From a virus, in the IMG/VR virus record IMGVR_UViG_3300046011_001449, positions 1 to 21,404 of that record: 21,404 bases of DNA, one strand, 5' to 3'. The number at the start of each line of letters is the position of its first letter. The stretch's first letter is position 1. The translations under genes and the position numbers were made by a program. Below, in pieces: positions 19,621-21,404 of the stretch. A model generated the notes under the pieces. It did no database searches and was not told the DNA's origin. It worked only from the letters and a program-made list of their open reading frames with translations.

Positions 19621-19628
19621 TATATTTG
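19621..19628 (+). promoter_or_regulatory. Promoter -7 box directly before structured leader 1
   Basis: TATATTTG, a perfect TAnnTTTG box. Nineteen bases upstream there is TTA instead of TTG. The expected transcription start, about 7 nt downstream of the box, falls next to base 19638, where the structured leader begins. Confidence 0.65.
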
Positions 19629-19637
19629 CAAAACAAT

Positions 19638-19712
19638 CTGGTCAGAGATTGAAACAAAACTATAATCGATCCTAATTTTGCCTACTCTGACCAGTAGGAT
19701 TTAAGTTAGGAT
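19638..19712 (+). promoter_or_regulatory. Structured 5' leader RNA 1 (hairpin with loop-tail pseudoknot)
   Basis: Three helices can form. S2: ATCCTAATTT (19669-19678) with AAGTTAGGAT (19703-19712), 10 bp with one G-U. P3, nested inside it: CCTAC (19681-19685) with GTAGG (19694-19698), leaving the 8-nt loop TCTGACCA (19686-19693). S1: the 5' end strand CTGGTCAGAG (19638-19647) is complementary to CTCTGACCAG (19685-19694), which contains that loop. S1 and S2 are interleaved, so together they make a pseudoknot. A T-run (19712-19717) follows S2, so the hairpin can also be read as a terminator. TAGGAT at 19695-19700 is a second partner for ATCCTA at 19669-19674, an alternative fold. The element ends 16 nt before the ATG at 19729. 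Confidence 0.7.
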
Positions 19713-19728
19713 TTTTTAATTAAACATT

Positions 19729-20172
19729 ATGAGTAAAGATTTATTCCAGTTAATGCGACAACAAGAAATTGACACGCAAAATTTCCTCCCAAACAAACTA
19801 GAGATCCAGCTATCTGCAAAAACATTTATCAAAGAAGTGTTAGATGCTGGAGAGATTGACAAAATTGAACTACTAGCGCAAGCCAAACGAATGGGCGAAG
19901 CGTTAGATGTTATTAACGCTGAACTTATAAAAGTTCTCCCACAAGAGAACTTTGAGGGTTACGGACTAAAAGGCACATTCCGAAGCGGAGGGGAAACTAT
20001 CAACTTCAAAGATTGCGAAGTTTGGAGTGATATTAACAGAGAACTAAAAGAACGTGAGGACTTATTAAAGTTAGCTTTGAAATCGCAAAACGAAATATAC
20101 GATGCGGCTGGAGTTCAAGTTCCAAAAGTTAGTACAACGCCACGCAAAAGTAGTATGGCTATATCATTTTAA
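19729..20172 (+). CDS. Early/replication-region protein of unknown function
   Basis: A 147-residue, mostly helical protein: MSKDLFQLMRQQEIDTQNFL, KLEIQLSAKTFIKEVLDAGE, QAKRMGEALDVINAELIKVL, then a beta hairpin (YGLKGTFRSGGETINFKDC) and a long helix (DINRELKEREDLLKLALKSQ), ending with a flexible STTPRKSSMAISF. I do not recognise a family. It lies between a structured leader and an SSB-like gene and is followed by a VirE-N-like gene, suggesting a role in phage DNA replication or recombination, perhaps as a partner of the SSB-like protein. Confidence 0.65.
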   Translation: MSKDLFQLMRQQEIDTQNFLPNKLEIQLSAKTFIKEVLDAGEIDKIELLAQAKRMGEALDVINAELIKVLPQENFEGYGLKGTFRSGGETINFKDCEVWSDINRELKEREDLLKLALKSQNEIYDAAGVQVPKVSTTPRKSSMAISF

Positions 20173-20177
20173 TTTAA

Positions 20178-20251
20178 TATATTTACATTTCATAATTAAC
20201 CGATGCAAGGTTTGGGCATCTTAACTCCGATCCATAAACAAATATATTATT
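20178..20251 (+). promoter_or_regulatory. Promoter-like box and possible small pseudoknot leader before the SSB-like gene
   Basis: TATATTTA (20178-20185) is one base off the promoter box. Downstream, GATGC (20202-20206) pairs with GCATC (20216-20220); the enclosed GGTTTGG (20209-20215) can pair with CCGATCC (20227-20233), with one U-U mismatch and one G-U. The arrangement is an H-type pseudoknot with loops of 2, 0 and 6 nt that ends 18 nt before the ATG. It differs in design from leaders 1 and 2 and could arise by chance. TTAACCGAT (20196-20204) is partly repeated as TTAACTCCGAT (20221-20231). Confidence 0.35.
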
Positions 20252-20953
20252 ATGAGTACTTCAAACAGACGTGCAGCATTTGCACAACCACAAAGCAATC
20301 CAGCCACTAAGTTTATTGAGTGGAAATCAAACGACAAGTGTTTCAACTATTATGACAAGGATGCACAAAAGAACGTAGAAATACCTTTGCCTTTTAAGTT
20401 CTTAGTCTTAGATGAATTGCACACTATTAAAGGTTGGAATGATGCATCTGGAAGCAACATTTACTCCAACGAAGTGAAATTCATTTCAAAAGAAGTAATG
20501 ACAGTTAAACCTTTCAAGGGTAACGAAATTGCCAAAGGTTATTACAAAGACATTAAGGATAAAGTTGTAGCTGCTGGAGGACATTACACCAAGTCTATTT
20601 ATGTAATGCTTGAGGATGGTTCACTTGCTAATATATCACTAAAAGGATCTGGAGTTCAAAAGTGGGGCGACTTCACACAGAAAACACGCAATAGACTTGC
20701 AGATGAGTGGGTAATTGTAGCAAAAGCAGAAGATGGTAAAAAAGGAGCAGTTAAGTTCTCAACGCCAAGTTTCTCTTTTGCAAACTCTATATCTGATGAG
20801 GAAGCTAATATGGCAGACGAAGCGTTTAACATATTAGAATCATACCTTAAAACATACTTAGCAAAAGCAGACATTGATGTTGTATTAAATGGAGATATAG
20901 CAAATGACTTTAATGATATGCAGGATGCCGATGACGATGGATTAGACTTCTAA
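20252..20953 (+). CDS. Probable single-stranded DNA-binding protein
   Basis: A 233-residue protein. It begins MSTSNRRAAFAQPQSNPATK, a flexible basic start, then a beta-rich core (FIEWKSNDKCFNYYDKDAQK; LPFKFLVLDELHTIKGWND; VKPFKGNEIAKGYYKDI). The aromatic- and lysine-rich strands fit an OB-fold-like nucleic-acid binder. The last residues, MQDADDDGLDF, form an acidic tail with a final Phe, matching the tail that bacterial SSBs use to recruit partner enzymes. It lies between a small replication-region gene and a VirE-N-like gene. The fold is inferred; the tail is directly visible. Ends 20 bases before a strong terminator. Confidence 0.65.
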   Translation: MSTSNRRAAFAQPQSNPATKFIEWKSNDKCFNYYDKDAQKNVEIPLPFKFLVLDELHTIKGWNDASGSNIYSNEVKFISKEVMTVKPFKGNEIAKGYYKDIKDKVVAAGGHYTKSIYVMLEDGSLANISLKGSGVQKWGDFTQKTRNRLADEWVIVAKAEDGKKGAVKFSTPSFSFANSISDEEANMADEAFNILESYLKTYLAKADIDVVLNGDIANDFNDMQDADDDGLDF

Positions 20954-20972
20954 ACAAACAACACAACTAATT

Positions 20973-20998
20973 AAACCGCTATAACTAGCGGTTTTTTT
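20973..20998 (+). terminator. Strong intrinsic terminator after the SSB-like gene
   Basis: Perfect 9-bp stem AAACCGCTA (20973-20981) with TAGCGGTTT (20986-20994), 4-nt loop taac, then seven T in a row (20992-20998). Confidence 0.92.
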
Positions 20999-21226
20999 AT
21001 TGATGCAAAGTAAACATTTTGCGTTTTCTATACCCCCTTAGAAAACAGACTTGTAAAAAGTTATAGGGGGGTATCAAAAAAGTAAAACAATGTTTACTAT
21101 GTTTACTTTAAATTTGTAAGTACTTGATATTGTTATATTTAAAAATGTAGGTTCAAAAACGTTAACATAATATTAACACTTTTGTAGTGTTTTAATCTTT
21201 ACTATTAAAAAAAATGTTTACTATTG
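20999..21226. repeat. Repeat-rich non-coding region (TGTTTAC motifs and palindromes)
   Basis: No gene is seen between the terminator and the promoter at 21227-21256. The 7-mer TGTTTAC occurs at 21091-21097, 21100-21106 and 21215-21221, and inverted (GTAAACA) at 21010-21016. Longer matches: GTAAACATTTT (21010-21020) is the exact inverse of AAAATGTTTAC (21211-21221); AAAGTAAACA (21007-21016) is the inverse of TGTTTACTTT (21100-21109); ATGTTTACTAT is repeated at 21090-21100 and 21214-21224. A near-palindrome GTTAACATAATATTAAC lies at 21161-21177 and a 6-bp hairpin at 21175-21191. Such clusters fit iterons of an origin or operators of a regulator. Confidence 0.6.
21023..21073. other. C-run/G-run pseudoknot-forming element
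   Basis: GTTTTCTA (21023-21030) pairs with TAGAAAAC (21039-21046) around the 8-nt loop TACCCCCT. That loop (21031-21038) is complementary to GGGGGGTA (21066-21073). The two helices are interleaved with a 19-nt connecting loop: classic H-type geometry. ATACCCCC could alternatively pair with GGGGGTAT as a plain hairpin. Whether it acts as RNA or as DNA is unknown; it lies just after a terminator and before the next promoter. Confidence 0.5.
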
Positions 21227-21256
21227 TTGTTTATATTAATATAATTTCTATATTTG
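21227..21256 (+). promoter_or_regulatory. Promoter for the VirE-N-like gene
   Basis: TTG at 21227-21229, a 19-base spacer, then TATATTTG at 21249-21256. This is the best match in the window to the Bacteroidota consensus (TTG, about 19 bases, TAnnTTTG). The predicted transcript starts near 21263, a few bases before structured leader 2. Confidence 0.8.
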
Positions 21257-21266
21257 CATTTGTAGT

Positions 21267-21334
21267 CTGGAAGCTATTGAGAAAATCTTATCAATGCCAC
21301 TCTTTCACGACTTCCAGCGTGTTTGAGTGGCATT
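21267..21334 (+). promoter_or_regulatory. Structured 5' leader RNA 2 (same architecture as leader 1)
   Basis: S2: AATGCCACTC (21293-21302) with GAGTGGCATT (21325-21334), 10 bp perfect. P3 nested inside: CACG (21306-21309) with CGTG (21318-21321), leaving an 8-nt loop ACTTCCAG (21310-21317). S1: CTGGAAG (21267-21273) at the 5' end is complementary to CTTCCAG (21311-21317), which lies in that loop. S1 and S2 are interleaved. Internal loops of three T on each side separate S2 and P3. The element ends 16 nt before the ATG at 21351. Confidence 0.75.
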
Positions 21335-21350
21335 AACCTTTTATGTACTT

Positions 21351-21404
21351 ATGGAATATAAAATTTCAGTTTTTAAAGACCTTTTAAAATCTAAAGATGT
21401 ACCC
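21351..21404 (+). CDS. VirE-N-like primase/replication protein, N-terminal start (3' end outside window)
   Basis: Eighteen codons are visible: MEYKISVFKDLLKSKDVP. The 'ISVFK.....k.vp' beginning is familiar from Bacteroidota phage and island proteins with a VirE N-terminal (BT4734-like) domain, usually joined to primase or helicase regions. ATG 21351 is chosen over ATG 21343, whose frame closes after 13 residues. With so few residues the family is a guess supported by the SSB-like neighbour. Confidence 0.5.
   Translation, partial: MEYKISVFKDLLKSKDVP

Follow-up and report, generated by a model that had tools for sequence, protein, structure and literature searches.

Two leaders in a phage genome fragment belong to a family of RNAs that is defined by its architecture, not by its sequence, and that belongs to phage early transcription units. 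In most families of this kind the RNA folds into an intramolecular kissing-loop complex, in which the loop of a first hairpin (P1) pairs with the loop of a second (P3). The DNA analysed, referred to here as the window, comprises the 21,404 bases of an IMG/VR virus record; leader 1 (19638-19712) heads gene 1 and leader 2 (21267-21334) heads gene 3, and the leaders and genes described below lie on the + strand. The first-pass annotation of the window had located both leaders correctly, and their structural parts could be re-read in the sequence. It had described a 5' strand complementary to an apical loop; the complementarity is there, but the strand is not free, as it lies within the loop of a hairpin, P1, which had been overlooked. 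Because the 5' strand is presented in the P1 loop, the knot is a kissing-loop complex. The proposal that the two leaders represent a real RNA family has held up, since homologous leaders retain the pairings and shuffle controls, covariation and independent model matches all concur. Likewise, the view that no named family has this layout agrees with Rfam release 15, in which nothing in the window or in nine other leader-bearing loci reaches the gathering score and nothing up to E = 1 falls on any of the three window RNAs (the two leaders and a pseudoknot described below). The RNA family is almost certainly real and new to the resources searched, while its regulatory role, also claimed, is something that we infer.

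The common layout consists of a TAnnTTTG promoter, P1 with a loop of about 8 nucleotides (nt), an A-rich connector, a stem (S2) capped by P3, a U-tract and the ATG. In leader 1, the promoter -7 box TATATTTG (19621-19628), of the TAnnTTTG type of Bacteroidota, is followed by P1, CAATC-TGGTCAGA-GATTG (19634-19651; arms 19634-19638 and 19647-19651), whose loop supplies the 5' half of the kiss. A 16-nt A-rich connector, AAACAAAACTATAATC (19652-19667), leads to the 5' strand of S2, GATCCTAATTT (19668-19678). Next come P3, CCTAC-TCTGACCA-GTAGG (19681-19698; arms 19681-19685 and 19694-19698), with a loop complementary to that of P1, and the 3' strand of S2, AAGTTAGGATT (19703-19713). Directly after S2 lies an intrinsic-terminator-like U-tract, TTTTTT (19712-19717), and the start codon is the ATG at 19729. 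Leader 2 has the same -7 box, TATATTTG (21249-21256), and a P1 hairpin, GTAG-TCTGGAAG-CTAT (21262-21277; arms 21262-21265 and 21274-21277), which is weaker than that of leader 1, with 4 base pairs (bp), one being G-U. Its S2 strands, AATGCCACTC (21293-21302) and GAGTGGCATT (21325-21334, followed by AACCTTTT), enclose P3, CACG-ACTTCCAG-CGTG (21306-21321; arms 21306-21309 and 21318-21321), the loop of which complements CTGGAAG; the ATG is at 21351. The S2 strands of both leaders were assigned by structural parsing and RNA folding. Unconstrained minimum free energy folding of leader 1 returns P1 (6 bp) and P3 with 6-nt loops, GGUCAG and CUGACC, that are exact complements. Against dinucleotide shuffles, nested folding gives z = -4.4 for leader 1 and -3.1 for leader 2, and the S2/P3 hairpins alone give z = -5.1 and -6.4, respectively.

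Scans of related phages reveal how widely this architecture recurs, with families defined at a 75% identity cut. In about 35 related contigs, gene 1 is preceded by at least 4 unrelated leader sequences with one architecture, and unrelated leaders sometimes precede gene 1 proteins that are >95% identical. A strict descriptor scan of 2.1 megabases (Mb) of related phage contigs, in which neither promoter nor start codon was required, produced 43 unique matches, 39 of them between a TAnnTTTG box and an ATG. Three Markov shuffles of the same 2.1 Mb produced 2, 1 and 6 matches, and 0 with both promoter and ATG. A looser scan found 120 unique candidate leaders in 47 clusters, about 106 of them credible; 33 of the 47 clusters were kept as credible families, single matches without a plausible gene being dropped and some relaxed matches being spurious. 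Within ten phage genomes, the knot is present in 25 of 95 promoter-proximal leaders versus 1 of 475 shuffles. Over the 33 families, the kiss has a median of 7 bp (6-9), with a duplex of about -10 kcal/mol, S2 has a median of 10 Watson-Crick pairs (7-13), the kiss begins a median of 10 nt after TTTG, and P1 typically starts 4-9 nt after TTTG. Atypical families include three with a longer second loop (L002, L031, L114) and the ACCGCCAA family, which has no clear P1. For the two window leaders, the spacings first reported (9-10 nt from the box to the kissing helix, then called S1, and 16 nt from S2 to the ATG) are correct. The ‘exactly 16 nt’ from S2 to the ATG is also the median of the 33 families, but it is no constant, as the range is 9-26. 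The CTGG/CCAG that both S1 helices share is a coincidence, S1 being unrelated in other families.

Covariation had been claimed from two hand-picked sequences, which are insufficient alone; wider covariation and BLAST-based tests are favourable. MAFFT was unable to align the unrelated leaders, so they were aligned by structural blocks, and model R1 is approximate because these blocks were N-padded and trimmed. Standard pairs fill 91.2% of the pair cells across 30 diverse leaders, compared with 50.4% when shuffled and 35-47% when slid, and the covariation score is 0.993 versus 0.231 shuffled, no shuffle reaching either value. Double changes occur at all 26 pairs, the kiss included, and there is no invariant column in these 30 leaders, nor any sequence conserved across the leader families. 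The 30 leaders had partly been found by their pairing, and two tests free of such choice were added. A tally over the founders' BLAST homologues has 31 changed pairs of the kiss that are Watson-Crick versus 2 G-U, 3 A-C and 6 other, and changed S2 pairs comprise 47 compensated, 31 G-U, 10 A-C and 16 other. The roughly threefold excess of G-U over A-C in S2 points to RNA of this strand. The covariance-model search suggested in the first-pass annotation was run with a model lacking the kiss and found 7 new families, all of which have a loop-loop complement of 6-10 nt (combined p ~1e-6).

Some groups of leaders have features of their own. Two near-identical leaders in one phage (L034:8325 and L034:10195) stand before two putative endonuclease genes, and their kiss differs by one compensated base pair (GTGGTCG/CGACCAC versus GTGGTAG/CTACCAC). 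The idea that the kissing 7-mers are the fastest-evolving part, as for incompatibility loops, was rejected, as pairwise rates lent it no support and the 5' kiss changes less than any other block (1.9% in close pairs); diversifying selection is accordingly not claimed. Seven clusters carry AGUAG...CGAAA between S2 and P3 (shuffled rate 0.1%), a sequence that can form, and may adopt, an internal loop of the loop E/sarcin-ricin type. An AGUA/GAA internal loop at the S2-P3 junction is seen in L056, L013, L062, L105, L098, L033, L035 and L208. Another subgroup (L015:4580, L113:6775, L029:3765, L117:6386, L122:517) has conserved internal-loop strands, UGAAAC...GUGGAU, flanking the kissing loop.

Most phages have 1-4 leaders when the whole record is searched. 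Cultured phages also carry them, with two kissing-loop leaders in tooticki6-1 and one in lillamy9-7, and the leader is found in distant relatives, contigs binned as Bacteroidota metagenome-assembled genomes (L128, L137, L208, L141). The cultured Polaribacter phage Leef_1 and Cellulophaga phage phi46:1 gave no model matches. A search of 150 Flavobacterium genomes returned no true copy, only seven model matches that lack the promoter-P1-kiss context; read singly, all seven look like ordinary intrinsic terminators, and a host origin was therefore rejected. Because these genomes yielded only plain terminators, the leader is a phage feature as far as sampled. The genes that it heads include gene 1, VirE-type primases, NUMOD4/HNH and GIY-YIG homing endonucleases, a helicase, an AAA protein, an MT-A70 methyltransferase, a DUF6291 protein and others. 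A single leader family can precede unrelated genes, and a single gene family can have unrelated leaders. As leaders and genes reassort, the module is generic and portable and is not bound to one product, and the idea that every gene is autoregulated by the protein it encodes was rejected for the same reason.

In most families, S2 with its U-tract also resembles an intrinsic terminator. A U-run of at least 4 is present in 94% of the 33 families versus 21% of 284 control open reading frames (ORFs) of the same phages, and a T-run of at least 5 in 79% versus 12%. The third base after the last S2 G-C pair is T in all representatives, the foot of S2 is richer in G-C than its top, and most families have a stable hairpin with a G-C foot followed by a U-tract. 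The seven false matches in host genomes, which resemble ordinary intrinsic terminators, were also counted in favour of attenuation. Since promoter and gene flank this terminator anatomy and a hairpin made earlier holds its apical loop, we tentatively favour the reading that the leader is a portable, co-transcriptionally folding attenuator-type switch. P1, near the 5' end of the RNA, would form first, and its loop would capture the P3 loop once the latter emerges from RNA polymerase. The kiss would then set whether, or how fast, the terminator-like hairpin of S2 and the U-tract closes before the polymerase has passed, promoting or preventing termination, and this closure would set the amount of early mRNA made. 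Several points weigh against such a switch. On a terminator score calibrated for E. coli, with approximate coefficients, the leader 1 family scores +7, but only 15 of the 33 families score >0 and the median is just below threshold. The leader 2 family has a displaced T-run and no directly adjacent U-tract, no alternative antiterminator pairing is evident in the leaders, and the U-rich start regions could serve translation instead. A literature search found no expression data for these phages. Finally, gene 1 occurs in cultured relatives without such a leader, and therefore the leader is not essential there.

A third RNA, missed in the first-pass annotation, lies between leaders 1 and 2, upstream of gene 2. 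It is an H-type pseudoknot (20202-20233) that follows a promoter-like box, TATATTTA (20178-20185; TATATTTAC or TATATTTGC in homologues). Stem 1 (20202-20220) pairs GATGC (20202-20206) with GCATC (20216-20220), enclosing AAGGTTTGG, and stem 2 (20209-20233) pairs GGTTTGG (20209-20215) with CCGATCC (20227-20233), with one U-U mismatch in the window copy. The full order is GATGC-AA-GGTTTGG-GCATC-6 nt-CCGATCC, followed by 18 A/U-rich nt to the ATG at 20252. Homologous leaders were picked by protein, not by structure, and the pseudoknot recurs upstream of gene 2 homologues at about 55 loci. Among 23 distinct copies, 98.6% of cells are paired versus 74.2% shuffled, covariation is 0.690 versus 0.180 shuffled, and the cells include 19 G-U and 0 A-C. 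Scores of at least 10 are reached by 54 of 70 homologue leaders and by 31 of 350 shuffles. Homologues with as little as 31% protein identity still have the pseudoknot, which one sub-lineage (L063-L083) lacks; where it is present, the spacer to the ATG is 13-21 nt, one low-scoring chance match aside. Gene 2 (20252-20953) encodes a protein of 233 amino acids (phrog_6706) that is a candidate for a single-stranded DNA-binding protein (SSB), with an acidic tail ending DDDGLDF, as in SSBs, and a beta-rich structural model (pLDDT 83). The protein matches no solved SSB in sequence or fold and nothing in the PDB; its fold relatives are clear, occur in phages of many hosts and are nearly all uncharacterised proteins. 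Gene 2 and its relatives are possibly an unrecognised phage SSB family. The leader has the layout of the T4 gene 32 type, an H-type pseudoknot upstream and then an A/U-rich ribosome site, and by analogy we hypothesize that gene 2 may be autoregulated via its own leader.

The same data can be read in other ways. The leader could be a structural cap, a kissing-loop fold that does no switching and merely shields the 5' end from decay while keeping the start region unstructured. With P1 so close behind TTTG, the RNA would begin almost in a helix, and the end of S2, a median of 16 nt before the ATG, agrees with the low-structure zone from -20 to +20 in F. johnsoniae (PMC6847099). An A at -3, the known positive determinant, is present in 76% of representatives, and a fold whose shape is kept while its sequence is free would also suit a cap. 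However, a cap leaves unexplained both the tie of the U-tract to S2 and why a simple hairpin would be insufficient, and we regard it as somewhat unlikely. Less likely again is an operator. Here a phage or host protein, with the SSB-like product of gene 2 as a candidate, would read the knotted shape together with the U/A-rich spacer and control how the early regulon is translated, in the way that T4 gp32 acts on its own mRNA. In the T4 gene 32 layout, a pseudoknot precedes A+U-rich RNA that covers the ribosome site (PMC3014915), spacers such as UUUUUUAAUUAAACAUU are compatible with this arrangement, and gene 2 of the same phage has a pseudoknot and A/U-rich spacer of its own. That pseudoknot, however, is a different fold with an A-rich spacer, and single-stranded DNA binding by gene 2 is only putative. 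In addition, the loop sequences of the leaders are wholly different, so that only shape could be read, and the reassortment of leaders and genes makes regulation of each gene by its own product unlikely.

Two further explanations fare much worse. Two hairpins directly after promoters, in several units per phage, might suggest a cis-acting antitermination element read by RNA polymerase, similar to HK022 put, that acts on terminators further downstream. This is very improbable, as the 30 leaders offer no conserved unpaired sequence for the polymerase to recognise and the leader has its own terminator-like U-tract. The pairing could also be due to chance, or to DNA-level repeats (operator or origin sites) mistaken for RNA, given that weak inverted repeats are common in AT-rich DNA and that the relaxed scan let in some spurious matches. 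The shuffle controls, the interleaved pairing, the excess of G-U over A-C, the covariation and the fixed placement between promoter and ATG make this scarcely credible.

The remaining features of the window concern the genes and the interval between gene 2 and leader 2. Gene 1 (19729-20172) encodes 147 amino acids of unassigned function; it has no family match, its mostly helical structure model is of low confidence, and a search of bacterial genomes found no homologues. It shares 56% protein identity with sequences from cultured Flavobacterium phages (genera Muminvirus and Lillamyvirus). Gene 3 (21351-21404) is cut by the window end and is a BT4734/VirE-type primase-helicase, a class taken from its orthologue L005:6070-8427, which matches PF08800, PriCT_1 and DUF5906. 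An ordinary intrinsic terminator follows gene 2 at 20973-20994. The interval from 21006 to 21225 contains ATGTTTACT repeats at 21090, 21099 and 21214 and an inverted copy at 21006-21018, upstream of the primase gene, as well as a nearby palindrome with CCCCC/GGGGG arms (21017-21043/21061-21087). Judged by sequence, these repeats and the palindrome possibly form a candidate replication origin with iterons. Distant relatives have other short repeats upstream of the same primase, for example GTTGTCACGG in L131 and GACCGTCAT in L134.

Almost nothing is known of how phages of Bacteroidota regulate their early genes, in hosts that have an unusual promoter and no Shine-Dalgarno sequences. With one tertiary fold written in at least 33 versions unrelated in sequence, the family amounts to a natural collection of compensatory mutants in which kissing loops and co-transcriptional folding can be studied, and the leaders of tooticki6-1 and lillamy9-7 make the fold accessible in cultured phages. 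A literature search, with many subscription papers outside its reach, found no paper describing the leader family. A portable early-gene switch of this kind has probably not been described before, and the kissing-loop terminator might prove to be a switch of a new class. In the fullest picture, flavobacterial phages would have a shape-coded, sequence-free kissing-loop and terminator module, serving as an interchangeable switch of early units and carried along by homing endonuclease genes, and next to it an SSB pseudoknot operator that resembles T4 gene 32 and evolved independently; taken as a whole, this is possible but doubtful.

Comparison with known systems places the leaders near several of them. 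Like attenuators and intrinsic terminators, they have a hairpin and U-tract between promoter and first gene, but here the terminator loop is engaged by the loop of a 5' hairpin, and the leaders showed neither a leader peptide nor a ligand domain nor an alternative antiterminator helix. HK022 put is a sequence-conserved, two-hairpin RNA directly after early phage promoters. The leaders resemble it in having two hairpins in that position, but their families have no conserved sequence, which excludes them from the put class, and put is not known to have kissing loops or a built-in U-tract. The kissing loops of ColE1 RNA I/RNA II and HIV TAR-TAR* are 6-8 nt long, largely or fully complementary, and form about 7 bp. 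Loop size and pairing are alike in the leaders, with the difference that both loops lie in one mRNA leader. Type III toxin-antitoxin RNAs, tandem pseudoknot repeats before a toxin gene, were considered and rejected, as each leader holds a single copy and the genes downstream are primases, helicases, homing endonucleases and others. With the T4/RB69 gene 32 operator the window leaders share a pseudoknot in a phage leader, after which an A/U-rich single strand spans the start region, but the early-gene leaders differ in their kissing hairpins, their U-tract end and the many different genes that they precede. Gene 2 is closer, as its pseudoknot also stands ahead of an SSB-like protein; however, 18 nt separate it from the start codon, and its host group has no Shine-Dalgarno sequences, whereas the T4 operator lies 67 nt upstream (PMC3014915). 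The same review remarks that the T4 gene 32 pseudoknot is possibly the only viral example of its kind (PMC3014915), a remark on which the gene 2 pseudoknot now bears.

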